Source: Corylus avellana | Lineage: Eukaryota; Streptophyta; Magnoliopsida; Fagales; Betulaceae | Direction of reading: 5' to 3' | NCBI RefSeq assembly: GCF_901000735.1 | Contig: NC_081545.1 | Span: 14,248,919-14,312,918 of the forward strand | Length of the DNA: 64,000 bases | In this document: positions 35,090-59,467 of the stretch, in pieces | Layout: each line of letters starts with the position of its first letter | How positions within the stretch are numbered: position 1 is the stretch's first letter | Translations under genes and position numbers: made by a program | Notes under the pieces: model-generated | Database searches by the model: none | What the model was told of the DNA's origin: nothing | What the model saw: only the letters and a program-made list of their open reading frames with translations

Positions 35090-35127
<38 letters not shown>

Positions 35128-35483
35128 TAAGCATATATGAGAATGTTATGAAAACCGGTTACTCAAGGAATAAGGGGTAGAGAACTAACTGGCAATATAC
35201 TTAGCCTTAATTCTGCTACAGAGTGTTTCATGGAGGAATTATAAGTTACTATTAAGTGAGTCAAATGGATTAATTATTCAATAAAAATATTTATTAGAGT
35301 GCAATCACAATTTTTTAGTGGAATTAATTGTGATTAAATATTGTTGCGTAACGAATGTTTGGGACATATATTACAAACATATTTAAGCTAATAATTATTT
35401 TTCCCTTTAGGTCCCTCACCAAGCTAATGTTAGTTAACCATGGTTTGGCCTTCTAAATCTATAGGGCTGAATGTTTTTATTTA

Positions 35484-36308
35484 GGGAATTTATATATAAA
35501 CTCCTTAGGTCAACGCGCCTTCATTAAAAACTCCCTAGGTATTTTTTTTTCGAAAATTTAGTCCCTGGGTCAATCGAAACTACAAGAAACTCCCTACCGT
35601 CAATTTTTGTTAACTGCCATTATTTTGAGTTAAACAAACCGTTTCACTTAAGTCCACCTCAGTCGAATTTTTGTATCCTACGTGTTCACATTGGACACGT
35701 AGGATATAAAACTCACCATTTTGGACCATCCAAAACGGTGAGTTTGGCTTAAACTTGACGGCTTCTTTTTTGAAACCCATCACTTGCATATGGTAAAATC
35801 CAGAGAAGCCGATACACGTCAAGCGCCGAACCCACCGACGCAGAACCCACCGGCGACAAAACCACTGGCTACAGAACCCACCGGCGACAGAGCCCACCGG
35901 CGACAGTACCCACCAACGAAAGTTCCCCGTTAAATCACTCAGTCTGGCGTGACTTTTCCGGCAAGGGTTCTGTCGAATCACAAGATTTTGAATCAAAAAA
36001 TCATGTTTCGACGAAGGTATTTTCCGGAATTTGTTTGTGGGTTTTGTTGATTGAAATAAATGGAAGCCTTTTATAGTAGTTTTTTGAATAGTTTTGTTGT
36101 ATTGGAAGCTTTTGGTCGAAACCTCATCCCCAAGTTTTTTTGTCGAACATGTGTAGGATTACTATATACACATTTGAGAGCTTGTATTGGAATATTGTGT
36201 ATAATTTATTGCACTTTTGAGCCAACAATATTGTTGATTGGCAATGGGTGTGGTCCACCTTGGTTGTGGTCCTGGAATGAGACAGTGATTTTTCATGTGC
36301 ACTGGCAA
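35484..36308 (+). repeat. Left terminal inverted repeat of the 24-kb MULE
   Basis: Matches 58667-59467 in reverse complement along its whole length, roughly 90-95% by eye in the outer 130 bases. It includes a short irregular tandem repeat (ACAGAACCCACCGGCG type, about 35825-35920). A 108-codon frame at 36060 is mirrored in the other repeat, but the two differ mostly by amino-acid-changing substitutions, which argues against a maintained protein. Confidence 0.85.
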
Positions 36309-36612
36309 ACAGTACCTTTATTGTTTTGTCATGTTAGGCAGAAGGCTTTCTATCAATTTTTTCTGTGGGGCTTAATTTTCATTTAATGTACAACTCACTG
36401 TGCTCAATATACAACTCACCGTGCTCATTCTAGAAGTGTATGGATGTTCTGAATTTTGAGAAGTCAAATTTGGTGTTTAATTTATCTGTTATTTTAATTT
36501 GAGTGGGGCTTTCCCTGGAGCATACCGGTGTAACTGTCTCTTTCCTTTATGTTTTCATCTTGGGTATGTTATAATTTATCATAAAAGAAACATATGTTGA
36601 CCAGTGAACACC
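36309..36612. other. MULE interior next to left repeat, unassigned
   Basis: About 300 bases without a gene. TACAACTCACTGTGCTCA is directly repeated near 36390-36425. Its origin is not recognised. Confidence 0.4.
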
Positions 36613-37150
36613 TGATTACATATTTAATAGAGAATATGATACACAACCTGGTGACCTCACAACAGCAATTCACGGCTAATCAAAAACAATTCAATACAAA
36701 GACTAATCAAACCATTCAAAGACTAGAAGTGCAAATGGGGCAGATAGCAAAGGAGCAGAGTGAAAGGAAGTAGGGAGAATTCCCAGCCCAAACAATACCT
36801 AACCCAGGGAGTCACCAGCAGCTGAAAGCAGTTACAGTGCTCAGGAATGGCAAAGTCAATGGAACTGAAGAGCCACCTTAAGCAACTCCAGATGAACCAT
36901 CAACCTCTAAGGTAAACAAAATGGAGAAGGTAAATGCACCCCCTTTTCCTCAAAGGTTAGTCAAACCAAAGAAAGAAAAGCAACTCATGGATACCTTTAA
37001 GACTCTAAGGAAAGTAGAAATCAATATTCCCTTGTTAGATGCAATTAAATAGATTCCTTCTTATGCGAAATTTTTAAAATATTGTTCCACTAACAAAAGG
37101 AGATTTCAAGAGCATGAGACTGTGGACCTAACAGAAGAGGTAAGTGCAGT

Positions 37151-37546
37151 TTGTTGAGAAAATTACCACCCAAGCTAACAGATCTGGGTAGTTTTACCAT
37201 TCCTTGCAGGATAGGAGACCACCTTTTTGAGCATGCATTGCTGGACCTGGGAGCAGGGGTCAATTTGCTGCCTTACATGGTATATGAAAAGTTGGGTTTG
37301 GGGGAGCTTCAACCAACCTCAGTCACCTTGCAATTGGCAGACAGAAGCATCAAAAGACCAAGAGGTATACTTGAGGATGTGTTGGTAAAGGTAGGTACAT
37401 TTATTTTACCTGCTGACTTCATTATGTTAGATGTGGAAGAATCTCCTATGCCATCACCCTTGCCTATCATCTTAGGAAGACCCTTTATGAGAACTGTTGA
37501 TACTACAATAGGTGTGAAAAAGGGTACTAATGAAGGTGAATGGTGA
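37151..37546 (+). pseudogene. E5 retropepsin-like protease domain
   Basis: The frame reads LGSFTIPCRIGDHLFEHALL then DLGAGVNLLPYMVYEKLGLG, then a LADRSIKRPRGILEDVLVKV segment, and ends PIILGRPFMRTVDTTIG. This is the full aspartic-protease fold of Athila-group elements. The active-site triplet is DLG where most retropepsins have DSG or DTG; I recall this as usual in Athila-type proteases. It is open over 131 codons, but the surrounding gag frame has stops (near 36771, 36879, 37050) and nothing like reverse transcriptase follows. Confidence 0.75.
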
Positions 37547-38689
37547 GACAATAGAATTTAAAATATTTGATGCAATGAAGTTAAGTCATGATGATTTAGA
37601 ATGTTTTGATGCTTGTATGATCCAAAGTGTTAGTGAGCCAGTTTTGCAGAGTTCACAAGAAGTTCCAATAAGGACCCCCTCACTCATAAGTCCACAAGTT
37701 AGGACACTGGGCCAATCTATGCATATGTTGCTGAAGATATCAATGGAGCAAAGCAACCTCTTCAAGCCAGTCCACCATACCCAAGTACCAAAAGAAAGCT
37801 GCAACTATATGAATGGGACGACAATAAGCTCCACAAGAAAAGACCCAAGGACCATTATCACAGAAAGCATATCAAGAAGGTGTCCTATATGGAATTGATA
37901 TTATCAACCAATAAAGAGAGTCCTGTTCTTGCACCACCAAGGGCACCTAAGCCACATTCTATGGAGCTCGAGTGTAGTTCTCTACACTAGAGACAGTTCA
38001 GGTACAAGTAGAAGCGTTTGAGCAGTCCAGGAACTCAAGCGCATCTACTCAAAACAGTGGTACTGAGGCCACTGAAGGCGGTACACTTTTTTTCCCTCTT
38101 GTTTCTTTCATCATATCAATTTCTTTACTTTACAGGTATCTCACTTATCCTTTGTGTTTCTTTTTCATTGTTGTCTATTATGCAGAATTTTTTTATTTTT
38201 TTATTTTTTTTCTGTTACTACGATCGATTGCAACAAGTATGCGATCTAGCGTAGTAACTGAATGTTAGTCTTAAACATTTTGTTAGTGTGATCAAACGCA
38301 CCTTGGGTGCGATCGAGCACACATCACCCACACATGCACTCCCCTGGCCAAATGTGATTAAGCGCACCATGTGTGCGATCGAGCGCACTCAGACAACTGG
38401 GCACGTGACCTATTTTAGGTCACTTTCCCCCTATTCTCCCTCACACTTTCCTGCATCGTACTAGTCCCCATCACCTGAACTCAAACGTCACCGAAGCACC
38501 ACCACTTTCCCTCACCTCCACCGGCCTTGAACCACCACCACCACACCACATCTACACTTGTACGACCCCATTCTACCCTCCGGCCACCACCATAACCACA
38601 CAACCCATTCCCCATTCCCATCAACACCACATCTCCGATCACTCTTCCAACCTCCAATTTTTCTCATTCTTTTTACAATTATGGGTGTT

Positions 38690-39946
38690 CATCCACCCAC
38701 ATTGCCTCTGTGTTGGGAATTTCTTTTCTTTGCAGGGGGTTTTGAGCGGTGTTGGCTTATGTTGCAAGTTTGGCCATCTCTAGCGCACACCAGGTGTTTG
38801 ACAAAAGTCCCCAATCAAGCACAAAATGCCAAGACCCGTGCTTCATCCTCCCGGGTGTCCGAGGCCCAAGCTATTTCTCCCCCGCCTACTTTTGAAGAGC
38901 GAGAGCTGCTGTTTAAGACCACCTTCGCCATTCGCGAAGACTTTCAAAACCATGAGGCGACTCTATGAGCAGTCGCCGAGTTCACGCGAAGGGGGCTCAA
39001 GAAACTTTTCAAGCCGGTCACCTCCACTGCCTACCGGGAGCTAGTGATCGAGTTCTATGCCCGCCTATCCCATGATTGCGACAGGCTGGCAGTCCTCTCT
39101 TCCAAGGTGCAAGGCCAAGTTGTTGACATGACACGGGCCGACATTACCGCTACCCTTCAATCCAATGATTAGCATCCTCCAGAAACCGCACATCTTGCCG
39201 AGCAACCGCCCCAATACTATGTGGCGGAAATCATTGAGGACATGTGCCAAGGGCAATATGCCGATGCCCATCATAATGCCGGCAGCCGATCCAAGCTACA
39301 TCAATGACTTTGGTTTGTGGACTCCATATTGCACCGTAATGCCTTCCCCTTGGGACACAGAACTCAGAGGCGTGATCAATTTCTCCAGACCCTCTACGCC
39401 TTCCACAAAGATGCCTGGTACTCCATTCCCGACATTATTTGGAACCAAATTCACAAATTTTGGAATGGTGTGCACATTGGAGGAGCGGAGTCCATTCACT
39501 CATGGGGATTGCCTTTCCCATACCTAATCACGTACATTCTTCGGAAAAAAGGCATCAAGGGCACCGCAGCTGATGAGCCAGTCACTACTACTCCAATATT
39601 TGGCATTCACTAACGGAACAAGAGCTGCTCCCACATGCCCCGAGTACCCCAAGCACCAGCAGCTGGTGAAGAAGAGAGTGATGCCAAGCCAATAGTTGAA
39701 GATGAACCAGCAGTTAAGCTGGCAGCAGCAGAGGAGGAGGAGGCCCCATCATTTTTTGAGCCGCACAATACCGCTCCCTTAGTGAAGAGATGGCGGGCCT
39801 TCAGAGAGAGCTTGCTGATCAAAGAAGGGAGGCTCGGGAGGATAATGTCCTGATCGATAAAAGACTAGTTGCCTTAGAAGAATTAATGCAGTCCATTCTC
39901 AACCGATTGCCACCACCATCTGAAGCATCATCCTCTGGACAACATT
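38690..39946 (+). pseudogene. E5 second ORF, 'putative plant transposon protein' type
   Basis: Copy of 2553-3818. The start MGVHPPTLPLCWEF is near 38681-38720. The core FAIREDFQNHEATL is followed by TGA at 38966 where the other copy has TGG. Later segments include DAWYSIPDIIWNQIHKFWNG and SWGLPFPYLITYIL (39411-39541). The reading frame shifts near 39170-39310 and ends with the same acidic and coiled-coil-like tail at about 39946. Confidence 0.65.
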
Positions 39947-41418
39947 GAGCAGGGACCACCGTCTGGCTGAAGATGTAAAACTTAGCGCTCGTGGGAGGCA
40001 TCTTATAGTTTATCATTTTATTTTGTTTTGTTTAAGTGTGTTTTAAGTTAATCTTTTTATTTATCTTTAGTTTTGTTCCTTTTTACTTGTTTTTGTGTTT
40101 CTTATTTTGCAGGGACAAGTGTGCTTCACTTCAAGTTTGGGGGTGTGCTATGAGCCATGCTTTCCAAGATGATATCGACCATCTCCCGGGTACCCACTTT
40201 CCTTTACTTAGACACATTGGAGACAATGTGTCATTTAAGTTTGGGGGTATGGGCACGCAAAATTGTTCACACACTTTGTCCCAATTTCAAGTTTTTTTTG
40301 TTTGAGTGTTTGTTTGTTTATTTTTAAAAAAAAAAATTAAAAAAAAATTAAAAAAAAAAAATTATGCATGTTCATGTTTGCCCTAAAATTTTAAGTTAGT
40401 CTAAAAGAATTGTGGCTTGAATTCATCAGTAAGCTTAAAATTCTTATCACATGATCTGATGAGTGAATCTGTTAGTTTGATTACTTGTTTAGGACAGTTG
40501 AAAAATCACATATTTGATCTGATCACACAAGCACATTAGCACATAATTTGTGAGGTATGACATGAGGTCTGATATGTGTGTTGCTGCAGCATCTTATTGG
40601 ATGACTTATTAGATGACACTGTGGAATATATATTGCGCAAAGAAAAAAAAAAAAAGTGAAATATATGATCATTGATGGGCTTTTCACTGAGTAATTGGAC
40701 TTCTTGCCTCAAAGCATTGAGTGTTCACATCAAAAGGTGAAAATTTTTTATTCAATCAATGTCATGGTTAGTTTGGTTTTGTAGCCTTTTTTACTCGAGT
40801 TAGTAGGTCCCTAGGGGTGTCTCTACACCTAACACAGTCATTGACTTAACACTCACTACATGGGTCAATTAGAAAGCTTAAAGGAACCAAACATTGCACA
40901 ATCTAATGGAAAAAAAAAAAATGAAGAAAAAGAAATATGCCATGGTTGTTCATTCTAATAGGGATTCAAGTGAATTTTGAGAGATGGAGACACTACATGT
41001 TGGAAAGATTTGGAAGCCTCATAATTATGTCCTAATTCACTGTGCACAAATTTCAAACTTGTGATGATTTAGCATATCTTTTGTAAGTAATTGAACTTTG
41101 AGATTCCAATTCATTGTGAAGATGTTGTTTATCATTTTAAGCTTGCTAATGAATGAAAATCATGATCTTGAAGTGATACTTAATTTTTGGGGATAACATG
41201 AACTGTGCATGATATTTGTGGGTAACATTTATGGAAAACCCTCACGAGACTTCACTCATCCTCTAGGGAATTCCTAGAGGTTGAAGAGGCTTGTTGCATA
41301 TGCTAAATGCAATTGTACATCCCACGAATGATGGATTTATCTTTTTGTTCTCTGCTTTTCACTTTTGGTTTTTAGTTGTCTATTGCTATGGGACTAGCAA
41401 TATGTAAGTTTGGGGGTG

Positions 41419-42060
41419 TGTTAAGTGCTAAAATATTCATATTTTCAACCCTTAACTTACATGTTTTAATCCTTTAGTTTTAGTTAATTAGGCCATTTTA
41501 ATTCCTTTTTGTGTTTTTCATACTTTTTGTAGGCTTTTGGAAGAAAATGAAGTAAAACTGGAAGATTTGGTCTCAAAGAGAGAAATTGGGAAAAGTTGGA
41601 GCCCCTGACACTGCGATCAGTCGCAGGTTCCCTGTGATCGAACGCAGTACCAGAGAAGACAATGCATGAAGCGGCCATCTGTAATCGAGCGCCACACACA
41701 CAGGATCGATCGCAGACCTGCGATCGAGCGCACACGGGTTGCAATCAAGCGCACCCATGCGCAAGAGACACATCAAAAGCTGCAGCCAAAATGCTAGTAT
41801 TTCTATATTAGGGTTTTCCAACTCCCAATTGTAATAGGTTTAAAACCCTACGAAAATTTCTAGGTTTACTAGTTTGTCAAGGACTTCTAAAGCCTATAAA
41901 TAGATCCTTAGGCCTTTAGAATAAGGAGGCTTGGGAAGGAGAAGAATTGGAGCTCTCAAGTTCAAGTTTCGGGTTTATTCTTTTGCTTTCTTTTCTTTTA
42001 TTTTATGAAGATGTTTAACATCAACTTCATGTGTAACTCATTTAATTACACATGAAGTAA
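41419..42060 (+). repeat. E5 partial 3' LTR
   Basis: Starts TGTTAAGTGC after a polypurine-like tract and follows the E1 LTR for about 640 bases. It includes the GCGATCGAGCGCA cluster (41608-41762) and TATAAATA near 41897, and stops at about 42060 where the first SPH unit begins. Confidence 0.8.
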
Positions 42061-42156
42061 TAATGGCGTTTATGTGGCTCATTAGGATTTTTTGTGTTAT
42101 TCGTTTGAAAGTTATTCAATGTTCAAACTAGATAATTTTATTTATCCATTGAATCA

Positions 42157-42266
42157 TTTTTTTTTTTTTTTTGGCATGTCCGCATAAAAGTGGGGAGGGG
42201 GATTCGAACTAGTGACCTCAACTTCATTATGCGTGGTCTCAACCGATTGAGTTAGCTCTTGGGGAC
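42157..42266 (-). mobile_element. tRNA-derived SINE in SPH unit 1
   Basis: On the minus strand: an A-box-like TAACTCAATCGGTTGAGACC, a B-box-like TAGTTCGAATCCC, then an A-tail (T-run 42157-42172). ATTTATCCA flanks it at 42140-42148 and 42267-42275. Copies at equivalent places: about 44933-45051, 53082-53198 and 55904-56018. Related to the SINE after the CLE gene. Confidence 0.7.
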
Positions 42267-42444
42267 ATTTATCCACTAACTTAAGCAAATGTGAAACGGA
42301 TCAATTTAATTATATCTAGATAGGATATGAGTATAATTCAAACCAAATCATTCATTTAAATACCATATATATGACGTATAATTAGCTCAACTTAATCACT
42401 ATGATACAATTAAATCTAAAGCCACATTTGTGATTCAAAATTAA

Positions 42445-42810
42445 GGAAAAGATACAAAATTAGTTCTTGTGGTTTACCTAATTTACAATTAGTTCTATGT
42501 AATATAAAAATGAACTAAAATGTCCTTGAGTTATTCGAAAATAAAAAAAATTAGTCCTTATAGTCAAATTTTGTCTACTAATTTAACAGATTCCGTTAGT
42601 GTGACAATAACTTAAATCGAACAAGTATCACAATTTTTTTAGCTCTGACGTTTCATACTATCAAAATCTGTTAAGTTAGTGAACAAAATTTGACTGTAAG
42701 GACTAAATTGTTTTTTTGATCTACCTGAAGGAACTTTGAGTTCAATTTAATACCACTGGGAGTTAAAAGCAAATCAGGTAAACCACAAAGATTAATTTTT
42801 CATTTTTCTC
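42445..42810. mobile_element. MULE-type MITE in SPH unit 1 (366 bp)
   Basis: The inverted ends share TTTGTGGTTTACCTGATTT-like sequence about 20 bases in. The 9-bp duplication CAAAATTAA lies at 42436-42444 and 42811-42819. Equivalent copies: 45228-45596, 50834-51204, 53372-53743 and 56195-56519 (internally deleted). Confidence 0.75.
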
Positions 42811-43103
42811 CAAAATTAATTGGAATAAACTACAAACAAAAAAGAAGAGTAAGATACAAATATAATTATTAAAAGACTATTTTGGATTTTATTTTTGTTT
42901 AAAAGCGGTCAAACCATAGGAAAAGAGCAGCGATGAGAAAGCATAGCAGAGTGGGGAGGGCGAGGGAATTACGACTCCCTCCTCCGCGCCCCCTTTCTCC
43001 TTCCCCCTCATTTTTCCTGCCTCTACCATAGATCGATCAAGGTGCATGTGTCAATGGTCCTAGGGGTGCTTTCTAGCCTCGCGTAGCTAGCTGGCGGAGG
43101 TGC

Positions 43104-43367
43104 GTGGAACGCGTGAGGGTGTGTTGGGTTTTTATTATTCTATTTTTGTTGTTTTCAACTAAGAATGTATTCTCTCTAGATCTGCTTTTAGTAGTGATCT
43201 ATGGGGTGAGGTTTTATTTGTTTTCTCAGGTTTTGTTTTCACGAATCCTTAAGAATAACGAAATTGGTTTCCAGTCGGTCTTTTGTTTTCTTATGGTTCT
43301 TTTTCTAAGACCAAGACATAGACTAATGACGGAGGAGTTATCTGGCATAAACAAGAATTGTCACTAA
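43104..43367 (+). other. Short plus-strand ORF repeated in each SPH unit (doubtful gene)
   Basis: Equivalent frames lie at 43104-43367, 45890-46177, 51507-51713 (start lost, end altered), 54037-54324 and 56813-57100. They begin MERVRVCWVF in most copies, with a hydrophobic N-terminus and up to 95 codons. They follow a GC-rich stretch with CTCCCTCCTCCGCGCCCCC that looks like the first exon of some gene. The frame may persist only because the units are recent duplicates. I recognise no family, and tails differ between copies. It lies downstream of SPH on the opposite strand. Confidence 0.3.
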
Positions 43368-43562
43368 AGTGGAGGGAGCGAAGGGAATTGAGATTGATAA
43401 AGCAGTAATAGCGGAGATATAAACGTGACTCCATCAAAATTTTGAAACAATTGGATGAAATAATAATAATTTTCTATAAGAGAAATATGAATGACTTTCA
43501 ATTGCTCTTTATTTCACAATTCACTTGATAAACTCTTCATTTTGAATGTCGTTGGCTTGTAA

Positions 43563-43999
43563 TCATGCACGTTCAGGTGAGTTTTGATCAGTCCACAAAT
43601 AGCATAAATTATACTCGTTTCTCTTGGGGTCTAGAAAACATGCACCAATAGTTCTAATCTTCCAAGTGCAATTCACGCATTCATCACATCTAGCGTAGTC
43701 ATAGATATTATACCAATGGCTTTGATTTTTGCACGTAAATCTACAAAAGAATAGTGTAGTCCCCCAGAAGTTTGGTGTAAAGTTGAACTCGAAGAAGCCA
43801 TTTGGTTTCAGTGTGTCGACACCAAGATCATCGTTCTTTGATTTACAGGCAAGGGTAAGAAGCAATCCATGGCCTAAATCATTAATGATTTTTATAGTTT
43901 TTGGTGATGTTTCCCAATTCCTTCAACATTATTAAACTCAATCACAGACAATGTAAGCCACATTAGTAGAAACACAGCAAGTTTACTGATTAAGATCAG
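43563..43999 (-). pseudogene. SPH-1: S-protein homologue, start codon lost and frameshifted
   Basis: Aligned with the intact copies, the initiator ATG is CTG (43999-43997). One C is missing near 43903 (CACC for CACCC), which shifts the frame inside the mature N-terminus. From codon ~46 onward the frame is good (LTLACKSKNDDLG to YLWTDQNSPERA). It also has two Cys-creating changes absent from the other copies (FTCKNQ for FTWKNQ; ARCDEC for ARGDEC), consistent with lack of constraint. The promoter TATATATA is retained at 44082-44089. Confidence 0.85.
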
Positions 44000-46348
44000 G
44001 GTGTTTTTGTTTTTGGTAAACTATGCTGGCTTTATAAAAAAAAAAAAATCAGGGCGACTTTCGAATGGTGTCTAGGAATTGTATATATAGAGGTGAAAAC
44101 TATTGGTGAAAGACCATAAAAACAAAAAATAAAAACAAAAAACAAAAAAAACAAAAACAAAAACAAAAAAAACAAAAAAAAAACACTTTAAGATATACTA
44201 TTAGAACGAAATATGAACAAATCACGTAGTGAATTCCTAATTTATTTACTAAAAAACAGGGGTGTTAATTAAGTTAGGTTCTATTTACATTTGCTAATAG
44301 AACCTAACAAATATGCTCTTTTAAGCATTTTTTTTTTTAAATTGTTTTTCCAGACAGCTTTAATTAACCGTTTCATTTGGCATTATGTAAAAGTAACACT
44401 AGTTTAGGTAGATAATGCCATTCAAGTTTACTTTGGTCAAATTGTTTCATTTATAGCTCTAGTATATTATATGATCCGAGAATGTGAGTGTTATGGTTAT
44501 TGGTTCCACAAAGAAAATATGTCTTATTTAAAAGACGAAGGGATATATATACACCCCCATTTGGCCAAAACGAACCACTCGACCTCCTCAATTTTTTTCT
44601 TCTAAATTTAAAAATTTTATTTTTTGTGCCATTTGAGTTGGTTGAACCACTTTCAATGGCCATAGGGGTGGTTCGGCCACCCCCAAATATGCTCTGACGG
44701 CCAGGGTTGGTTTCGACCAACTCCATTTGGGCAATTGGTGGAGGTTTGGCCAATCCCCATTTTATATTTTTATTTCTAGTTTTTTGATATATTTTTAATT
44801 TTCTATTGTAAGTCAAACGTGTCACAATATGAATCATGATTGGTGTTTATGTGGCTTATTAGGATTTTTTGTGTTATTCGTTTGAAAGGTATTCAATGCT
44901 CAAACTAGATAATTTTATTTATACACTGAATCTTTTTTTTCTTTTTCTTTTTTTTGACATGTCCGCATAAGAGTCGGGATGGGGATTCGAACTAGTGACC
45001 TCTAATTCATTATGTCTGGTCTCAACCGATTGAGTTACCTCTTGTGGACATTTATCCACTAACTTAAGCAAATGTGAAACGGATCTATTTAATTATATCT
45101 AGATAGGATATGAGTATAATTAAAACCAAATCATTCATTTAAATACCATATATATGACGTATAATTAGCTTAACTAAATCACTATGATACAATTAAATCT
45201 ACAGCCACATTTGTGATTCAAAATTAAGGAAAAGATGCAAAATTAGTTCTTATGCTTTACCTGATTTACAATTAGTTCTATGTAATATAAAAATGAACTC
45301 AAATGTCCTTGAGTTATTCCAAAAAAAAAAAAAAAATTAGTCCTTATAGTCAAATTTTGTCTACTAATTTAACAGATTCCGTTAGTGTGACACTAACTTA
45401 AATCGAACAAGTATCACAATTTTATTAGGTCTGACGTTTCACGCTATCAAAATTTATTAAGTCAGTAAACGGAATTTGACTGTAAGGACTAAATTGTTTT
45501 TTTAATATACCTGATGGAACTTTGAGTTCATTTTAATACCACAGGGAATTAATAGCAAATCAGGTAAACCACAAAGATTAATTTTTCATTTTTACCCAAA
45601 ATTAATTCGAATAAACTACAAACAAAAAAGAAGACTAAGATACAAATATAATTATTAAAACAATATTTTGGATTTTATTTTTGTTTAAAAGCGGTCAAAC
45701 CCTACGAAAAGAGCAGCGATGAGAAAGCATAGTAGAGTGGGGAGGGCGAGGGAATTACGACTCCCTCCTTCGCGCCTCCTTTCTCCTTCCCCCTCATTTT
45801 TCTTGCCTCTACCATACATCGATCAAGGTGCGTGTGTCAATGGTCCTAGGGGTCCCTTCTAGCCTCACGTAGCTGGCCAGCGGTGGTGCATGGAACGCGT
45901 GAGGGTGTGTTGGGTTTTTCTTATTGTATTTTTGTTGTTTTTAAATAAGAATGTATTCTCTCTAGATCTGCTTTTAGTAGTGATCTATGGGGTGAAGTTT
46001 TATTCGTTTTCTCAGGTTTTGTTTTCACGAATCCTTAAGAATAACGGAATTGGTTTCCAGTCGGTCTTTCATTTTCTAACGATTCTTTTCCATAGAGCAA
46101 GACATAGACTAATGACGGAGGAGTTATCTGGCATAAACAAGAATTGTCACTATAGTGGAGGGAGCGAAGGGGATTGAGATTGATAAAGCACTAGTAGCGG
46201 AGATATAAACGTGATTCCATCGAAATTTTGAAACAATTGGATCAAATAATAATAATTTTCTATAAGAGAAATATGAATGACTTTCAATTGCTCTTTATTT
46301 CACAATTCACTTGATAAACTCTTCACTTTGAATGTCGTTGGCTTGTAA

Positions 46349-46786
46349 TCATGCACGATCAGGTGAGTTTTGATCAGTCCACAAATAGCATAAATCATAC
46401 TCGTTGCTCTTGGGGTCTAGAAAACATGCACCAGTAGTTCTAATCTTCCAAGTGCAATTCCCGCATTCATCACCTCTAGCGTAGTCATAGATATTAAACC
46501 AATGACTTTGATTTTTCCACGTAAATCTACAAAAGAATAGTGTAGTACCCCAGAAGTTTGGTGTAAAGTTGAACTCGAAGAAGCCATTTGGTTTCAGAGT
46601 GTGGACACCAAGATCATCATTCTTTGATTTACAGGCAAGGGTAAGAGGCAATCCATGGCCTAAATCATTAATGATTTTTACAGTTTTTGGGTGGTGTTTC
46701 CCAATTCCTACAGCATTATTAAACTCAATCACAGACAACGTAAGCCACATTAGTAGAAACACTGCAAATTTACTGAATGAGATCAT
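46349..46786 (-). CDS. SPH-2: plant self-incompatibility protein S1 family (S-protein homologue), 145 aa
   Basis: Small secreted protein. The founding member is the stigmatic S protein of poppy; most SPH proteins have no known role. Signal peptide at about residues 1-27 (hydrophobic FAVFLLMWLTLSVIEF). The mature domain has the family landmarks KTVKIINDL, LACKSKNDDLG, TTLFFCRFTWK, NIYDYARGDEC, NCTWKI and LCYLW. Cysteines are at 52, 86, 108, 111, 121 and 133; N-glycosylation sequons at 92 (NQS) and 110 (NCT). Single exon, as usual for the family. Differs from SPH-3 at a few residues (V19, V26, G109, S127). A copia LTR begins 45 bp upstream of the ATG, so the TATATATA promoter of the sister copies is gone. 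Confidence 0.88.
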   Translation of the reverse strand: MISFSKFAVFLLMWLTLSVIEFNNAVGIGKHHPKTVKIINDLGHGLPLTLACKSKNDDLGVHTLKPNGFFEFNFTPNFWGTTLFFCRFTWKNQSHWFNIYDYARGDECGNCTWKIRTTGACFLDPKSNEYDLCYLWTDQNSPDRA

Positions 46787-46830
46787 GGTGTTTTTCTTTT
46801 TGGAAAACTATGCTGCCTTTATATAAAAAA

Positions 46831-47723: not shown

Positions 47724-47725
47724 AT

Positions 47726-47737
47726 TGGTATCAAAGC
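47726..47737 (+). other. Copia primer-binding site, tRNA-iMet type
   Basis: TGGTATCAAAGC starts two bases after the LTR; one mismatch to the usual TGGTATCAGAGC. Confidence 0.85.
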
Positions 47738-47792
47738 GGGTTCACTCTGTGAAGGATTTATTTCCTGAGTGTGATCCGAGACTCCATATCAA

Positions 47793-49631: not shown

Positions 49632-50571
49632 ATTAGGTGGGCACATAGATCATGCCTAGAAATTGAGCATATTGATATTTGTCTATAGCTGTTCTAGGGC
49701 ATTTTTGTTTCTTTTTGAATTTTTGTTTGCTTTGTTTTTATTTTCTTTGATTATTTTTTTATTCTTTTAGATTGTTTTAATTGTTGGATACTCAGTTTCT
49801 CATGTCTTGTGCTCAAATGAATATTTTACATATGAGTGGGGTCAATATTTCTGCAATTTACATCTATTGCTCCATATGTTTCTGATAAACCTTGTTTTTC
49901 TGAAAACTGTTAAAGGAGTAAGAGTCAGTTTTTCTCATGTTCGAAATTGTGCACTTTTTGCCCCCATTAGGTTTAGATTTTTGTTATGTGTTTGGGAATT
50001 TGGAGCAAACATTTTGCTTGGAAGATAGGTAGTGTCAGTTCTATCCACTTGACCAACTCGTTAGTTGAACCTAGCTCCTAAAAATTCCAACATTTTCCAA
50101 AAAAAAAAAAAAAAAAGGGATAAAGTAAGCTCAAATGACTTAGTTTTGCTTCTGTCTGTCCCTAAAGAAAGAATCAGTGATCAAATCATTGCGGAAATAG
50201 ATGATTACTAAAGGACATGGTAAAAGCGAATGATTAGTCTCAGGGGGAGTGTATCGGATGAGGGAATCTTGGTCCTAACATTTTAAGGTTTTACTGTGGT
50301 TTGAATCAGACTGTTTGTCTTTCATTTACAAAATGTCTGCCTAGATTTCCTTTCCACTGATGCAATCTTATTTAATGGGAGTTTTCACACACTACACATT
50401 CACATGAGATTTCTGATTATTGCCTACTTGACTGCATTCACAGAACAAGGTTGTGTCATGCATATGGTACATTTAAGGTGTAAGTGTAGTTTGTTAATCA
50501 CTCTGGATTGTTAAGATATTCATAAGGGCATGCATGATTTATTGGATATCTATAAAAGTTGTGTTTTCCTT

Positions 50572-50602
<31 letters not shown>

Positions 50603-50809
50603 GGTTTATTGTTTATTTTGTTTTTATATTAAGGGGGAGGATCAATTTTTTTTTGTGTGTTATTTTTTTTCTTTTTCTTTCTCTGTGATTCCATCTTTTC
50701 AACTTAAAGGATCAAGACTCACTCACCCAAGGTATGTTTTCTTCCCTTCTTCGTTTCAGTTTTGGTTTCGAATCCAATTCTAGGATGTGAATGTTTTGGG
50801 TTTCAAAGT
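49632..50809 (+). other. Copia 3' noncoding region with multiple polypurine tracts
   Basis: No ORF of note. AGGGGGAG occurs at 49604-49611 (just before the gag stop), 50242-50249 and 50632-50639; multiple polypurine tracts are a known Sirevirus mark. A-runs lie at 50099-50117 and 50579-50602. The expected 3' LTR is absent. Confidence 0.65.
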
Positions 50810-51747
50810 GCCACATTTGTGATTCAAAATTAAGGAAAAGATGCAAAATTAGTTTTTGTGATTTACCTGATTTACAATTAGTTCTATGTAATATAAAAAT
50901 GAACTCAAATGTCCTTGAGTTATTCCAAAAAAAAAAAAATAGTCCTTATAGTCAAATTTTGTCTACTAATTTACCAGATTCTGTAAGTATGACAATAACT
51001 TAAGTCCTTTCGAACAAGTATCACAATTTTATTAGGTCTGACATTTCACGCTATCAAAATCTATTAAGTCAGTAAACAGAATTTGACTGTAAGGACTAAA
51101 TTGTTTTTTTAATATACCTGAAGGAACTTTGAGTTCATTTTAATACCACGGAGAGTTAATAGCAAAATCAGGTAAACCACAAAGATTAATTTTTCATTTT
51201 TACCCAAAATTAATTCGAATAAACTACAAACAAAAAAGAAGACTAAGATACAAATATAATTATTAAAACAATATTTTGGATTTTATTTTTGTTTAAAAGC
51301 GATCAAACCCTAGGAAAAGAGCAGCGATGAGAAAGCATAGCAGAGTGGGGAGGGCGAGGGAATTACGACTCCCTCCTCCGCGCCCCCTTTCTCCTTCCCC
51401 CTCATTTTTCCTGCCTCTACCATACATCGATCAAGGTGCGTGTGTCACTGGTCCTAGGGATCCCTTCTAGCCTCGCGTAGCTCGCCGGCGGTGGTGCATT
51501 GAACGCGTGAGGGTGTGTTGGGTTTTTATTATTGTATTTTTGTTGTTTTTAAAAAAGAATGTATTCTCTCTAGATCTGCTTTTAGTAATGATCTATGGGA
51601 TGAAGTTTTATTCGTTTTCTCAAGTTTTGTTTTCACGAATCCTTAAGAATAACGGAATTGGTTTCCAGTTGGTCTTTCATTTTCAATTGCTCTTTATTTC
51701 ACAATTCACTTGATAAACTCTTCATTTTCAATGTCGTTGGCTTGTAA

Positions 51748-52185
51748 TCATGCACGATCAGGTGAGTTTTGATCAGTCCACAAATAGCATAAATCATACT
51801 CGTTTCTCTTGGGGTCTAGAAAACATGCACCAGTAGTTCTAATCTTCCAAGTGCAATTCACGCATTCATCACCTCTAGCGTAGTCATAGATATTAAACCA
51901 ATGACTTTGATTTTTCCACGTAAATCTACAAAAGAATAGTGTAGTACCCCAGAAGTTTGGTGTAAAGTTGAACTCGAAGAAGCCATTTGGTTTCAGTGTG
52001 TGGACACCAAGATCATCATTCTTCGATTTACAGGCAAGGGTAAGAGGCAATCCATGGCCTAAATCATTAATAATTTTTACAGTTTTTGGGTGATGTTTCC
52101 CAATTCCTGCAGCATTATTAAACTCAATCGCAGACAACGTAAGCCACATTAGTAGAAACACTGCAAATTTACTGAATGAGATCAT
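51748..52185 (-). CDS. SPH-3: S-protein homologue, 145 aa, intact
   Basis: Same architecture as SPH-2: signal peptide to about A26, then the S1-family domain with all six cysteines (52, 86, 108, 111, 121, 133) and both glycosylation sequons. It differs from SPH-4 only at residues 126-127 (KR for NK), so the copies are very recent. TATATATA lies 80 bp upstream of the ATG (52265-52272), with a (CAAAA)n tract about 40 bases beyond. Downstream, about 200 bp present in the other units is deleted between two TTTC repeats (junction near 51688). Likely secreted to the apoplast; partner unknown. Confidence 0.9.
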   Translation of the reverse strand: MISFSKFAVFLLMWLTLSAIEFNNAAGIGKHHPKTVKIINDLGHGLPLTLACKSKNDDLGVHTLKPNGFFEFNFTPNFWGTTLFFCRFTWKNQSHWFNIYDYARGDECVNCTWKIRTTGACFLDPKRNEYDLCYLWTDQNSPDRA

Positions 52186-52264
52186 GGTGTTTTTCTTTTT
52201 GGTAAACTATGATGGCTTTATATAAAAAAAATCTGAGTGACTTTTGAATGGTGCCTAGGAACAG

Positions 52265-52272
52265 TATATATA
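52265..52272 (-). promoter_or_regulatory. SPH-3 TATA box
   Basis: TATATATA 80 bp upstream of the start codon. The same box stands at 44082-44089 (SPH-1), 55014-55021 (SPH-4) and 57746-57753 (SPH-5) and is absent from SPH-2. Confidence 0.6.
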
Positions 52273-52321
52273 GTGGTGAAAACTATTGGCGAAAGACCAT
52301 AAAAAATAAAAAAATAAAAAC

Positions 52322-52352
<31 letters not shown>

Positions 52353-54495
52353 ACAAAAACAAAAAAAACTAAAAACTAAAAAAAAAAAAAAAAAACACTT
52401 TAGCATAGACTATTTGAAGGAAATATGAACAAATCATGTAGTGAATTCCTAATTTATTTACTAAAAAACGGGGGTGTTAATTAAGTTAGGTTCTATTTAC
52501 ATTTGCTAATAGAACCTAACAAATATGCTCTTTTAAGCATTTTTTGTTTTAATTTATTTTTTCAGACAGCTTTAATTAACCATTTCATTTGGCATTATGT
52601 AAAAGCAACACTAGTTTAGGTACGTAATGCCGTTCAAGTTTACTTTGGTCAAATTGTTTCAGTTATAGCTCTAGTATATTATATGATCCGAGAAGGTGAG
52701 TGTTATGGTTATTGGTTCCACATAGAAAATATGTCTTATTTAAAAGCCGAAGGGATATATATACACCCCCATTTGGCCAAAACGGACCACTCGACCTCCT
52801 GAATTTTTTTCTTCTAAATTTAAAAATTTTATTTTTTTTGCCACTTGAGTTGGCCGAACCACCCTCGATGGCCATAGGGGTGGTTTCGACCACCTCCATT
52901 TGGGCATTTGGTGGAGGTTTGGCCAATCCCCATTTTATATTTTTAATTTTCTATTGTAAGTCAAACGTGTCACAATATGAATCATGATTGGTGTTTATAT
53001 GGCTCATTAGGACTTTTTGTGTTATTCATTTGAAATTTATTCAATGTACAAACTAGATAATTATATTTATCCATTGAATCTTTTTTTCATTTTTTTTTTA
53101 ACATGTCCGCATAAGAGTGGGGATGGGGATTCGAATAAGTGACCTCCACTTCATTATGCGTGGTCTCAACCGATTGAGTTACCTCTTGGAGACATTTATC
53201 CACGAACTGAAGCAAATGTGAAACGGATCTATTTAATTATATCTAGATAGGATATGAGTATAATTAAAACCAAATCATTCATTTAAATACCATATATATG
53301 ACGTATAATTAGCACAACTTAATCACTATGATACAATTAAATCTACAGCCACATTTGTGATTCAAAATTAAGGAAAAGATGCAAAATTAGTTCTTGTGAT
53401 TTACCTGATTTACAATTAGTTCTATGTAATATAAAAATGAACTTAAATGTCCTTGAGTTATTCCAAAAAAAAAAAAAAAAAAAATAGTCCTTATAGTCAA
53501 ATTTTGTCTACTAATTTACCAGATTCCGTTAGTATGACAATAACTTAATTCGAATAAGTATCACAATTTTATTAGGTCTGACATTTCACGCTATCAAAAT
53601 CTATTAAGTCAGTAAACGGAATTTGACTGTAAGGACTAAATTGTTTTTTTAATATACCTGAAGGAACTTTGAGTTCATTTTAATACCACGGGGAGTTAAT
53701 AGCAAATCATGTAAACCACAAAGATTAATTTTTTACTTTTACCCAAAATTAATTCGAATAAACTACAAACAAAAAAGAAGAGTAAGATACAAATATAATT
53801 ATTAAAACAATATTTTGGATTTTATTTTTGTTTAAAAGCGGTCAAACCCTAGGAAAAAAGCAGCGATGAGAAAGCATAGCAGAGTGGGGAGGGCGAGGGA
53901 ATTACGACTCCCTCCTCCGCGCCCCCTTTCTCCTTCCCCCTCATTTTTCCTTCCTCTACCATAGATCGATCAAGGTGCGTGTGTCAATGGTCCTAGGGGT
54001 CCCTTCTAGCCTCGCGTAGCTCGCCGGCGGTGGTGCATGGAACGCGTGAGGGTGTGTTGGGTTTTTATTATTGTATTTTTGTTGTTTTTAAAACCGAATG
54101 TATTCTCTCTAGATCTGCTTTTAGTAGTGATCTATGGGATGAAGTTTTATTCGTTTTCTCAGGTTTTGTTTTCACGAATCCTTAAGAATAACAGAATTGG
54201 TTTCGAGTCGGTCTTTCGTTTTCTAACGATTCTTTTCCATAGAGCAAGACAGAGACTAATGACGGAGGAGTTATCTAGCATAAAGAAGAATTGTCACTAT
54301 AGTGGAGGGAGCGAAGGGGATTGAGATTGATAAAGCACTAGTAGCGGAGATATAAACGTGATTCCATCGAAATTTTGAAACAATTGGATCAAATAATAAT
54401 AATTTTCTATAAGAGAAATATGAATGACTTTCAATTGCTCTTTATTTCACAATTCACTTGATCAACTCTTCATTTTGAATGTCGTTGGCTTGTAA

Positions 54496-54933
54496 TCATG
54501 CACGATCAGGTGAGTTTTGATCTGTCCACAAATAGCATAAATCATACTCGTTTTTATTGGGGTCTAGAAAACATGCACCAGTAGTTCTAATCTTCCACGT
54601 GCAATTCACGCATTCATCACCTCTAGCGTAGTCATAGATATTAAACCAATGACTTTGATTTTTCCACGTAAATCTACAAAAGAATAGTGTAGTCCCCCAG
54701 AAGTTTGGTGTAAAGTTGAACTCGAAGAAGCCATTTGGTTTCAGTGTGTGGACACCAAGATCATCATTCTTCGATTTACAGGCAAGGGTAAGAGGCAATC
54801 CATGGCCTAAATCATTAATGATTTTTACAGTTTTTGGGTGATGTTTCCCAATTCCTGCAGCATTATTAAACTCAATCGCAGACAACGTAAGCCACATTAG
54901 TAGAAACACTGCAAATTTACTGAATGAGATCAT
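54496..54933 (-). CDS. SPH-4: S-protein homologue, 145 aa, intact
   Basis: Near-identical to SPH-3 (NK for KR at residues 126-127). Signal peptide, six cysteines and the CKSKNDDLG, TLFFCRFTW, CTWKI and LCYLW landmarks are all present. TATATATA at 55014-55021 is 81 bp from the ATG. The unit is complete (52990-55808), so this is the best-preserved gene of the array with its native flanks. Confidence 0.9.
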   Translation of the reverse strand: MISFSKFAVFLLMWLTLSAIEFNNAAGIGKHHPKTVKIINDLGHGLPLTLACKSKNDDLGVHTLKPNGFFEFNFTPNFWGTTLFFCRFTWKNQSHWFNIYDYARGDECVNCTWKIRTTGACFLDPNKNEYDLCYLWTDQNSPDRA

Positions 54934-55073
54934 GGTGTTTTTCTTTTTGGTAAACTATGCTGGCTTTATATAAAAAAAAATCTAAGTGACTTTTGAATGG
55001 TGCCTAGGAACAGTATATATAGTGGTGAAAACTATTGGCGAAAGACCATAAAAAATAAAAATAAAAATAAAAA

Positions 55074-55121
<48 letters not shown>

Positions 55122-57271
55122 ACAAAAACAAAAACAAAACAACAAAAAAAAAAACACTTTAACATATACTATTTTCAAGAAATATGAACAAATCACGTAG
55201 TGAATTCCTAATTTATTTACTAAAAAACAAGGGTGTTAATTAAGTTAGGTTCTATTTACATTTGCTAATAGAACCTAACAAATATGCTCTTTTAAGCATT
55301 TTTTGTTTTAATTTGTTTTTTCAGACAGCTTTAATTAACCGTTTGATTTGGCATTATGTAAAAACAACACTACTTTAGGTACGTAATGCCATTCAAGTTT
55401 ACTTTGGTCAAATTGTTTCAGTTATAGCTCTAGTATATTATATGGTCCGAGGTGGTGAGTGTTATGGTTATTGGTTCAACAAAGAAAATATGTCTTATTT
55501 AAAAGCCGTAGGGATATATACACCCCCATTTGGCCAAAACAGACCACTCGACGTCCTGAATTTTTTTCTTCTAAATTTAAAAATTTTATTTTTTTTGCCA
55601 CTTGAGTTGGCCGAACCACCCTCAATGGCCATAGGGGTGGTTCGGCCGCCCCCAAATATGCTCAGATGGCCAAGGGTGGTTTCGACAACCTCCATTTGGG
55701 CATTTGGTGGAGGTTTGGCCAATCCCCATTTTATATTTTTATTTCTAGTTTTTTGATATATTTTTACTTTTCTATTGTAAGTCAAACGTGTCACAATATG
55801 AATCATGATTGGTGTTTATGTGGCTCATTAGGATTTTTTGTTTTATTCGTTTGAAAGTTATTCAATGTTCAAACTAGGTAATTTTATTTATCCTTTGAAT
55901 CTTTTTTTCTTTTTCTTTTTTTGACATGTCCGCTTAAGAGTGGGGAGGGGGATTCAAACTAGTGACTTCCACTTCATTGTGGCTGGTCTCAACCGATTGA
56001 GTTACCTCTTGGGGACATTTATCCACTAACTTAAGCAAATGTGAAACAGATCTATTTAATTATATCTAGATAGGATATGAGTATAATTAAAACCAAATCA
56101 TTCATTTCAATATCATATATATGACGTATAATTAGCTCAACTTAATCACTATGATGCCATTAAATCTACAGCCACATTTGTGATTCAAAATTAAGGAAAA
56201 GATACAAAATTTGTTCTTGTGGTTTACCTGATTTACAATAGGTCTATGTAAAATAAAAATTAGTCCATATAGTCAAATTTTGTCTATGAAGTTAACAGAT
56301 TCCGTTAGTGTGACACTAACTTAAATCGAACAAGTATCACAATTTTATTAGCTCTGATGTTTCACGCTATCAAAATCTGTTAAATCAGTGAACATAATTT
56401 GACTGTAAGGACTAAATTTTTTTTTTGATATACCTGAAGAAACTTTGAGTTCATTTTAATACCATGGGGAGTTAATAGCAAATTAGGTAAACCACAAAGA
56501 TTAATTTTTCATTTTTACCCAAAATTAATTAGAATAAACTACAAACAAAAAAGAAGAGTAAGATACAAATATAATTATTAAAACAATTTTTTGGATTTTA
56601 TTTTTGTTTAAAAGCGGTCAAACCCTAGGAAAAGAGCAGCGATGAGAAAGCATAGCAGAATGGGGAGTACGAGGGAATTACGACTCCCTCCTCTGCGCCC
56701 CCTTTCTCCTTCCCCCTCATTTTTCCTGCCTCTATCATAGATCGATCCAGGTGCATGTGTCAGTGGTCCTAGGGGTGCTTTCTAGCCTCGTGTAGCTAGC
56801 CGGCGGTGGTGTGTGGAACGCGTGAGAGTGTGTTGGGTTTTTATTATTGTATTTTTGTTGTTTTTAAATAAGAATATATTCTCTTTAGATCTACTTTTAG
56901 TAGTGATCTATGGGGTGAAGTTTTATTCGTTTTCTCAGGTTTTGTTTTCACGAATCCTTAAGAATAAAGAAATTGGTTTCCAGTCGGTCTTTTTTTTTCT
57001 TATGGTTCTTTTTCTAAGAGCAAGACGTAGACTAATGACGGAGGAGTTATCTGGCATAAAGAAGAATTGTCACTATAGTGAAGGCAGCGAAGGGGATTGA
57101 GATTGATAAAGCACTAGTAGCAGAGATATAAATGTGATTCCATCGAAATTTTGAAACAATTGGATCAAATAATAATAATTTTCTATAAGAGAAATATGAA
57201 TGACTTTCAATTGCTCTTTATTTCACAATTCACTTGATAAACTCTTCGTTTTGAATGTCGTTGGCTTGTAA

Positions 57272-57652
57272 TCATGCACGATCAGGTGAGCTTTCACCAG
57301 TAGTTCTAATCTTCCAAGTGCAATTCACGCATTCATCACCTCTAGCGTTGTCATAGATATTAAACCAATGGCTTTGATTTTTCCACGTAAATCTACAAAA
57401 GAATAGTGTAGTCCCCCAGAAGTTTGGTGTAAAGTTGAACTTGAAGAAGCCATTTGGTTTTAGAGTGTGGACACCAAGATCATAGTTCTTTGATTTACAG
57501 GCAAGGGTAAGAGGCAATCCATGGCCTAAATCATTAATGATTTTTACAGTTTTTGGGTGATGTTTCCCAATTCCTGCACCAATATTAAACTCAATCACAG
57601 ACAACGTAAGCCACATTAGTAGAAACATTGCAAGTTTACTGAATGAGATCAT
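57272..57652 (-). CDS. SPH-5: S-protein homologue with in-frame C-terminal deletion, 126 aa
   Basis: A 57-bp in-frame deletion removes the equivalent of residues 120-138, including Cys121, Cys133 and the LCYLW strand; the frame jumps from KIRTTG to ESSPDRA. Other unique changes: D57Y in the CKSKNDDLG motif, E71K and Y102N. The signal peptide and TATA box (57746-57753) remain. It is the most divergent copy. The loss of family-conserved C-terminal residues makes a functional fold doubtful, so it could equally be called a pseudogene. Confidence 0.75.
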   Translation of the reverse strand: MISFSKLAMFLLMWLTLSVIEFNIGAGIGKHHPKTVKIINDLGHGLPLTLACKSKNYDLGVHTLKPNGFFKFNFTPNFWGTTLFFCRFTWKNQSHWFNIYDNARGDECVNCTWKIRTTGESSPDRA

Positions 57653-57679
57653 GGTGTTTTTGTTTTTGGTAAACTGTGC

Positions 57680-57710
<31 letters not shown>

Positions 57711-57763
57711 AAATTGAGTGACTGTCAAATGGTGTCTAGGAATTGTATATATAGTGGTGAATG

Positions 57764-58666
57764 ATTACAAACCATTATTTAGCCAATTTTCTGTAATTAC
57801 ACCAAAAAAAAATTATAATTACGAACAAGCACGAAGTAATAACTATTTCTTAACCCCAGATTAGCCAAATTCAAATACCTTTTTACAGTCATACATAGCA
57901 CACCCATAGGATGTTATAATTGGGCTTGTAAGGCCACACCTACACTGCACAGGTTTCATATCCTCTTTGGCGGATGATATTATAGATGCCGACGACATTG
58001 ACTGTTCATTCTATAGTGAAACCCAGAATTATTAGAAGTAATCACAGTTCCCTGATGGGTTTAACTAAGTAAAATTCACAAACCTTTTTTCATCTTCCCA
58101 TTGTAGAATTCGCTTTCATTGTCTCCTTCCCTGAAATCTTTCTTCCTCCTATTCATCTTATAATATGAACCTAACAATATATAACTGACATGTGAGAGAA
58201 TAATCAAGCTTACAAAAGAAAAATAAAATCAAGCTTGCCAAAAAATTATTCTCACTTCAATTTGTAATCTAAACAATACTGGAAAAAAAAATGTACATGG
58301 ATTACAAAAGATAATCACATTGTTTAAAATGTGATTCCCCTACAGAAATAGTACTACTCAATTTGTAATCTAAACAATACTAAGTTATTAGTGTAGTAGC
58401 TAGAGATGGTATATGAGCATTGGCGGCTCCCTACCAACACGCAAATATGCAGTGTAATCAAACATGCAATAAGAAGAAATTAGCCTTAACATCCAACCAC
58501 GTATATAATACTGCTCAATTGTAGAATGATGAAACTGGCATAAACTATGCACAAACAATTCCTATTTTCATGTCCTCGGCAATCCACCATTTGAGTAGAG
58601 AAGCAAAAAAAATAAAATAAATAGTTATACAGATGAAAAAATCCCCCTTCATCAGCTTGTCAATGC
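57764..58666. other. MULE interior next to right repeat, mostly unassigned
   Basis: AT-rich, about 900 bases. The only recognisable part is the GRF-like fragment at 57861-57998. CAATTTGTAATCTAAACAATACT occurs twice (58259 and 58360 areas), flanking a ~100-bp stretch. Confidence 0.4.
57861..57998 (-). pseudogene. GRF-zinc-finger-like gene fragment (45 codons)
   Basis: The minus-strand frame starts MSSASIISSAKEDMKPVQ and continues CRCGLTSPIITSYGCAMYDC, then KKVFEFG and a stop. The CxCG...TS start and the YGC motif match plant GRF-type zinc-finger proteins, which bind DNA or RNA. The usual stretch between TS and YGC (NPGRRF type) is missing, so this looks like a captured, internally deleted exon. 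Short length limits certainty. Confidence 0.4.
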
Positions 58667-59467
58667 ACATGAAAAACCACTATATCGTTCCAGGACCACA
58701 ACCAAGGTGGACCACACCCACTGCCAATCAACAATAATGTTGGCTCAAAAGTGCAATAAATTATACACAATATTCCAATACAAGCTCTCAAAGGTGTATA
58801 TGGTAATCCGACACTTGTTCGACAAAAAAGCTTGGGGATGGGGTTTCGACTAAAAGCTTCCAATACAACAAAAATATTCAAAAAACTACTATAAAAGGCT
58901 TCCATTTCTTTCAATCAACAAAACCCACAAACAAATTCCGGAAAATACCTTCGTCGAAACAAGATTTTTTTTATTCAAAATCTTGTGATTTGATGGAACC
59001 CTTGCCGGAAAAGTGACGCCGGACTGAGTGATTTAACCCGTGGGTATTGTCGCCGGTGGGCTCTGTCGTTGGTGGGTTCTGTAGCCGGTGGTTCTGTCGT
59101 CGGTGGGTTCTGCGTCAGTGGGTTTGGCGCTTGACATGTATCGGCTTCTCTAGATTTTACCATATGCAAGTGATGGGTTTCAAAAAATAATCCCTCAAGT
59201 TTAAGCCAAACTCACCATTTTGTATGGTCCAAAACGGTGAGTTTTATATCCTACGTGTCCAATGTGAACACGTAAGATACAAAAATTCGACTGAGGTGGA
59301 CTTAAGTGAAACGGTTTGTTTAACTCAAAATAACGGCAATTAACAAAAATTGACGGTAGGGAGTTTCTTGTAGTTTCGATTGACCCAAGGACTAAATTTC
59401 TGAAAGAAAATACCTAGGGAGTTTTTATGAAGGCGCGTTGACCTAAGAAGTTTATATATAAATTCCC
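58667..59467 (-). repeat. Right terminal inverted repeat of the 24-kb MULE
   Basis: Reverse complement of 35484-36308, ending in GTTTATATATAAATTCCC directly before the 9-bp duplication. Carries the same CCGGTGGGTTCTG irregular tandem repeat (59050-59125). Confidence 0.85.

Follow-up and report, generated by a model that had tools for sequence, protein, structure and literature searches.

A Mutator-like element of hazel with an array of S-protein homologue genes between its ends

On contig C5 of Corylus avellana, a 24-kb stretch bounded by long inverted repeats contains a cluster of S-protein homologue (SPH) genes, members of a large plant family of secreted peptides, many of which are of unknown role. 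A preliminary description, made from the sequence alone, regarded this stretch as a composite transposon of the Mutator-like element (MULE) type, which had moved, or grown, with its gene cargo. The locus therefore raises the question of whether one transposon or two are present, and of how several genes came to lie between the repeats. The window analysed here is the 64,000-nucleotide stretch C5:14248919-14312918, and positions without a contig name refer to it. All comparisons were made within one species and one assembly (369.9 Mb, 12 contigs). The reading preferred, with a probability of roughly two in three, is that a single non-autonomous MULE with terminal inverted repeats (TIRs) became a Pack-MULE: it captured an SPH segment, the array grew in place, and a cluster on contig C1 was founded from it.

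The two TIRs are 825 and 811 bp long, with mirrored termini, and were 92% identical by BLAST and 93.8% identical over aligned bases, in agreement with the inverted repeats of about 0.8 kb first described. A 41-base pattern built from both element ends matched twice in the window and never in 100 shuffles. The 9-bp duplication TTTTATTTA, also noticed at the outset, was exact at both ends; this word occurs eight times in the 64 kb, so that the chance of meeting it at any one specified site is about 1 in 8000. When a 301-base TIR probe was searched against the genome, all of the 40 places scored, on 11 contigs and including the two in the window, had at least 89% identity, which is a lower bound for the family size as these were the best 40 of 875 candidates. 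In a tree of 23 TIRs, the two from the window were sisters with a support of 1.000.

Eight complete elements of the family were compared, including the one in the window, and the genome thus does hold other copies of the repeat with 9-bp duplications and different interiors. The duplication was exact in five of the eight (in one of these it is a T run), had one mismatch in two and two mismatches in one. The seven other elements were 4.5-11.4 kb in length, four of them 8.0-8.8 kb. The Mutator type initially assigned to the ends was confirmed by these duplications and by the relatives' coding remnants: in ten reading frames scanned from three relatives, pieces of a MuDR-type transposase (DBD_Tnp_Mut, MULE and/or SWIM) were present in all three. 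Above the cut-off were DBD_Tnp_Mut in L014 and L017, SWIM in L016 and L017, and MULE only in L016; the matches in these three relatives were broken pieces. Sharing of the TIR with viral contigs was also considered and was dropped, as five contigs had only 17-19 bases in common with it, about the chance level estimated from the size of the collection. Elsewhere in the family, a 26-kb stretch at C8:15563393-15589359 (L022, L023) is bounded by TIRs of the family and shows an exact 9-bp duplication, TAATTTTTA; in the parts read, to either side of its middle 7 kb, it contains two Mutator copies of the same orientation, one partial and one almost complete.

The window element aligned with its relatives over 35484-36532 and 57779-59467, that is, at its ends only, with the exception of a 403-bp copia match in L028. 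With the family members at C9:15.14 Mb and C1:19.02 Mb, the left aligned part extended to 36629. The window copy has thus kept 1.15 kb of Mutator sequence on the left and 1.69 kb on the right, one being the left end of a family element and the other its complementary right end. The segment 36533-36630 had been considered as filler DNA; as the copies at C9:15.14 Mb and C1:19.02 Mb both carry it, it was reassigned to Mutator. Because the match to the relatives is restricted to the ends and because the TIRs are sisters, the comparison indicates that one Mutator-like element has lost its core, which was replaced by other sequence. The term composite transposon did not hold, as both repeats belong to a single element, of which they form the ends, and are not two mobile units. 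With its long TIRs, its 9-bp target duplication and the MuDR-type (MURA) transposase pieces of its relatives (none in the window copy), the element belongs with the TIR-MULEs; it lacks a transposase of its own and contains host gene sequence that has relatives elsewhere in the genome (PF05938; clusters at C5:17.8, C2:6.0 and C1:31.0 Mb), as Pack-MULEs do.

Removal of the insert left a solo long terminal repeat (LTR) of 1871 bp, between 34351 and 60214, which starts with TGTTGG, ends with CCAACA and has CAAAC on both sides. Outside this LTR an older repeat resumes, and its two halves, which run outward from 34333 and 60215, correspond to an uninterrupted stretch around 14690-14699. The rejoining of the flanks rests mainly on these two features, the LTR ends with the CAAAC duplication and the resumed older repeat, which are the stronger proof. 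The joined flanks were also compared with the relative at 9.4-11.4 kb. With ordinary scoring the match stopped 66 bases before the junction, with lax scoring a 64% match ran 54 bases past it, and a full local alignment passed through it; the controls for the junction were weak, as the right 150 bp alone scored 55, no better than the highest of 100 shuffles (55), and the joined piece scored 123, compared with a best of 118 and a mean of 93 when the right flank was shifted in 200 joins. From the earlier proposal that the flanks form one copia LTR with a relative at 9452-11332, the single LTR can be retained on account of its ends and CAAAC, and the name copia is unproven: the protein pieces adjoining the relative are gypsy-type (RT_RNaseH, RVP_2), but may belong to another element. 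The origin of both ends in one insertion event was borne out by the exact 9-bp duplication, the single solo LTR and the sister TIRs. The entire nest is bracketed by direct repeats at 31644-32346 and 61368-62070 (86% identity over 704 positions), at which clear LTR ends were looked for and none was seen.

From the left, the interior consists of a 5.4-kb retrotransposon piece and of five tandem SPH units, each about 2.8 kb long, which are interrupted by a truncated copia element (Table 1). The retrotransposon piece, probably gypsy, had a protease match of 22.3 bits (Pfam cut-off 24.3), a weak Transposase_32 match and an 80% paralogue at 1561-5941, and no LTR pair was seen for it. The copia element had a gag match of 82 bits and an LTR-like TGTTGGG at its start, and it stands where about 1.2 kb of SPH units 2 and 3 is missing. 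The SPH genes of units 2, 3 and 4 were open over 145 codons each; the gene of unit 1 was broken by a frame shift and the loss of its start codon, and that of unit 5 had 19 residues deleted in frame. PF05938 (Self-incomp_S1) was found in all three SPH frames scanned, with 110.6, 94.8 and 90.8 bits for copies 2, 1 and 5 (cut-off 24), in support of the SPH cargo first reported; copies 3 and 4 were assigned by protein search only. A hydrophobic N-terminus was visible in the SPH proteins, which may be secreted. The cargo had been described as three intact SPH genes with promoters. Three open genes are indeed present, of which the two starting at 52185 and 54933 (units 3 and 4) keep their full upstream sequence; in the third (unit 2, start 46786) the copia LTR takes its place from about -44 on. 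In unit 5, about 110 bp of upstream sequence are left between the gene and the Mutator junction. At 57272-58156, a predicted NCBI gene model joins a first exon in Mutator-derived sequence to the exon of SPH copy 5, and the last 100 residues of the NCBI protein "S-protein homolog 3-like [Corylus avellana]" are identical to this copy, its first 25 being encoded at 58156-58082. At 42439-42817, and at the equivalent place in other SPH units, about 380 bp are self-complementary (about 70%) and resemble a miniature inverted-repeat transposable element.

A protein search of the genome for SPH gave 149 matches among the best 150 of 178 candidates. Nineteen were of the window type (at least 91% protein identity): five in the window, seven at C5:17.83-17.90 Mb, three at C2:6.04-6.08 Mb and four at C1:31.00-31.01 Mb. 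In the tree of all 19 A-type units (1751 of 3051 columns kept), the ten units from C5:17.8 Mb and C2 formed one clade and window units 2-4 with the four C1 units another, both with a support of 100. Window unit 3 and C1 U3 were sisters (support 100), and window units 1 and 5 branched near the root of the split (support 49). The clusters at C5:17.8 Mb and C2:6.0 Mb are source-type. The C1 cluster shares the breakpoint between copia and unit 3, with 97.9% identity over 4075 positions. Its copia LTR is cut at window position 47619; the window keeps this LTR whole up to unit 2. Because the copia/SPH breakpoint and the tree agree, the C1:31.0 Mb cluster apparently derives from a window-type array and nests within its diversity. 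The array ancestral to it was likely already inside the Mutator element at the time of copying. No Mutator ends were found near C1:31.0 Mb in five tiles (46 kb), where only matches of up to 31 bases were obtained, nor in nine source-type loci (L033, L034, L038-L044), which cover only part of the clusters and gave one 31-base match, in L042; the positive control, L014, gave 1730 bases.

Some features of the clusters are recorded here in their own right. Two interleaved SPH subtypes, with about 92-97% and about 80% identity to the window protein, are present at C5:17.83-17.91 Mb and at C2:6.04-6.08 Mb; in the window and C1 arrays only the 92-97% subtype was seen. At C1:31.006-31.011 Mb (L035), one SPH unit contains a 4.4-kb interruption with 248-bp direct repeats, and the same 248-bp sequence is present where the C1 copia LTR is cut.

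The preliminary description left open whether the unit moved or grew. Each of the three interior junctions was whole only in the window, at one of the 40 places scored: SPH/Mutator (best 40 of 95 candidates), retrotransposon/array (best 40 of 1442) and Mutator/retrotransposon (best 40 of 421). Because of this, nothing shows that the 24-kb unit jumped, and a move at that size is unproven. Units 1 and 5 differed by 6.4% (93.6% identity) and the two TIRs by 6.2%, and units 2-4 differed by 2.8-3.4%. The ends together with units 1 and 5 amount to 7.6 kb, close to the family's size of about 8 kb. Because of the unit divergence, the later insertions and this 7.6-kb size, we favour the capture of a short segment followed by growth of the array in place, a reading drawn from the DNA of a single genome. 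The element would have acquired a copy of a short SPH segment, of one unit or more and perhaps with two tandem genes, which took the place of its transposase. This would have happened either in a period of mobility of its ends or in the course of gap repair following an excision, and the element may then have been a Pack-MULE of ordinary size, about 7.6 kb. The array would then have grown to five units through unequal crossing-over, and a copia element would have inserted into it and decayed. Later, a stretch comprising the copia piece and units 3 and 4 would have been copied to C1 by a mechanism that left the Mutator ends behind, and would have founded a new SPH cluster there; the cargo would have been maintained as genes instead of decaying as transposon passengers.

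Substitutions in the SPH genes were counted with respect to this last step. Units 2-4 had 6 nonsynonymous and 7 synonymous changes against an expectation of 73% nonsynonymous (p 0.037), and units 2-4 with the four C1 genes had 12 and 12 (p 0.014). The ratio of nonsynonymous to synonymous divergence (dN/dS) was 0.12-0.25 in pairwise comparisons among units 2-4, and 0.08-0.12 between these units and one source gene (dN 0.012-0.018, dS 0.150); part of the signal on such long branches predates the capture. The counts give modest support to an SPH cargo kept as genes under purifying selection. In rice, such selection was reportedly found on some Pack-MULE cargo by Hanada in 2009.

Several points weigh against the proposed history. 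The placement of C1 U4-U6 with window unit 4 was weak (support 48-70). The equal divergence of the TIRs and the end units gives no more than an approximate clock. Only 13 changes underlie the selection test on units 2-4, which can be distorted by homogenisation between units; the four C1 genes alone gave 7 and 7 (p 0.056), the seven source genes at C5:17.8 Mb gave 14 nonsynonymous and 11 synonymous changes (p 0.052), and a few very close pairs had dN/dS of 0.50-0.88. Exchange of the interior could also have occurred after the element landed, and one genome cannot order capture and insertion. In the most probable alternative, the LTR received an ordinary MULE whose interior was exchanged afterwards, at the same site, through ectopic repair from an SPH cluster, and no gene was captured during transposition. 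The 17-nt filler at the right junction, the retrotransposon piece without an LTR pair and the junctions found only once all fit repair with template switching. Against it, the anatomy is that of gene capture in Pack-MULEs, and the timing cannot be read from one genome. We consider this alternative somewhat unlikely, with the note that it overlaps the capture and growth in place described above and differs from it only in timing, so that the odds of the two are not additive.

The transposition of a unit of about 24 kb as a whole, with the array, the retrotransposon piece and perhaps copia aboard before insertion into the LTR, is improbable. It would account for the exact 9-bp duplication and the rejoining flanks, and the divergence between units 1 and 5, similar to that between the TIRs, would allow two or more units to have been on board. 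Speaking against it are the three junctions seen whole only in the window and the 2.8-3.4% divergence of units 2-4 with copia among them, which makes the full size probably younger than the TIR divergence; the Pack-MULEs of Jiang et al. (2004), in the passages of PMC6431247 that describe them, are also at most 7 kb. Two separate MULEs flanking an SPH cluster by chance, as a true composite or a coincidence, would draw on the abundance of this family's MULEs in the genome and can practically be dismissed, given sister TIRs (1.000) that share one exact 9-bp duplication, joined flanks that form one LTR with matching CAAAC, and retained ends that complement each other as the left and the right end of a family element.

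The element of the window resembles Pack-MULEs in its long TIRs, 9-bp duplication, lack of a transposase, host sequence inside and transposase-bearing relatives in the genome. The Pack-MULEs of the founding study (Jiang et al. 2004, as reported in portions of PMC6431247 and PMC3310237) were mostly 1-2 kb, none above 7 kb, and usually carried gene fragments. In contrast, the window element is 24 kb, holds whole tandem genes and has a derived cluster elsewhere. Capture of full-length host genes is described as exceptionally rare, as in Pack-MULEs, in the relevant part of PMC6431247, and compared with the sizes and completeness given there the cargo is unusually large and complete, as the preliminary description had claimed; the portion of PMC8903248 consulted contained nothing on a maximum Pack-MULE size. 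Passages of a 2026 review (PMC13317346) describe captured pieces as mainly fragments, some expressed and under selection. Nested transposon insertions occur in over a third of the coding MULEs of maize and rice according to an excerpt of PMC3903597, and are likewise present here; in the window element the transposase region is gone, and growth was mainly by tandem duplication of a host gene. In Arabidopsis gene transposition, as covered in sections of PMC2869330, a gene moves together with its noncoding flanks to a place not linked with the original one; ectopic exchange among arrays is considered there too, and one of the transposed genes is a Pack-MULE. The movement of a gene with its flanks would be similar here, with the difference that the window has a whole array between Mutator ends. 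Among the papers searched, none was found on SPH genes in Pack-MULEs, on S-protein homologues in Corylus, or on these homologues together with transposable elements and gene families. Several whole genes in one element, apparently under purifying selection, together with source-type clusters and a likely daughter cluster, offer a direct test of whether transposon capture can found gene clusters. A bolder reading, that a Mutator element captured a whole promoter-bearing gene and sheltered a selected tandem cluster, which then seeded a second on another chromosome, is tentative, at rather less than even odds; if true, transposon capture would be a route to whole new gene clusters, beyond gene fragments.

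Table 1. Window coordinates of the Mutator-like element, its contents and its insertion site
Feature	Position	Strand
5-bp duplication CAAAC, left of solo LTR	34346..34350	
Solo LTR, left part, TGTTGG start	34351..35483	+
9-bp target duplication TTTTATTTA, left	35475..35483	
Left TIR, 825 bp	35484..36308	+
Mutator subterminal sequence (transposase 5' side), common to other family members	36309..36629	+
Retrotransposon piece, probably gypsy	36630..42048	+
SPH unit 1, gene ~43566-43999 broken	42064..44840	-
SPH unit 2, interrupted by the copia element; gene 46349-46786 intact (145 aa)	44841..46830	-
Copia element, 3' truncated; LTR-like start 46831; gag open reading frame 47793-49631	46831..50809	+
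SPH unit 3; intact gene 51748-52185	50810..52988	-
SPH unit 4; intact gene 54496-54933	52989..55809	-
SPH unit 5; open reading frame 57272-57652 with 19-aa in-frame deletion	55810..57761	-
17-nt filler, SPH/Mutator junction	57762..57778	
Mutator subterminal sequence (transposase 3' side)	57779..58656	-
Right TIR, 811 bp	58657..59467	-
9-bp target duplication TTTTATTTA, right	59468..59476	
Solo LTR, right part, CCAACA end	59477..60214	+
5-bp duplication CAAAC, right of solo LTR	60215..60219	

A link between these SPH genes and the self-incompatibility locus of hazel was suspected, as SPH takes its name from the poppy S protein, and was set aside. According to a section of PMC8921776, this locus occupies 3.5-3.8 Mb of linkage group 5 in C. 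heterophylla and contains receptor kinases. The window lies at 14.25 Mb on C5; the numbering of the contigs does not necessarily follow that of the linkage groups. Outside the clusters, inverted-repeat SPH fragments were observed at C10:9.276 Mb (L047:1418-2152), as a near-palindrome with arms of about 350 bp, and at C2:25.207-25.211 Mb (L048:1052-1421 and 4807-5463). The C10 and C2 loci are related to each other, and more pairs of SPH fragments on opposite strands are present at C2:25.25-25.30 Mb. Judging from their arrangement, the inverted fragments on C10 and C2 could form hairpin RNAs against SPH genes.

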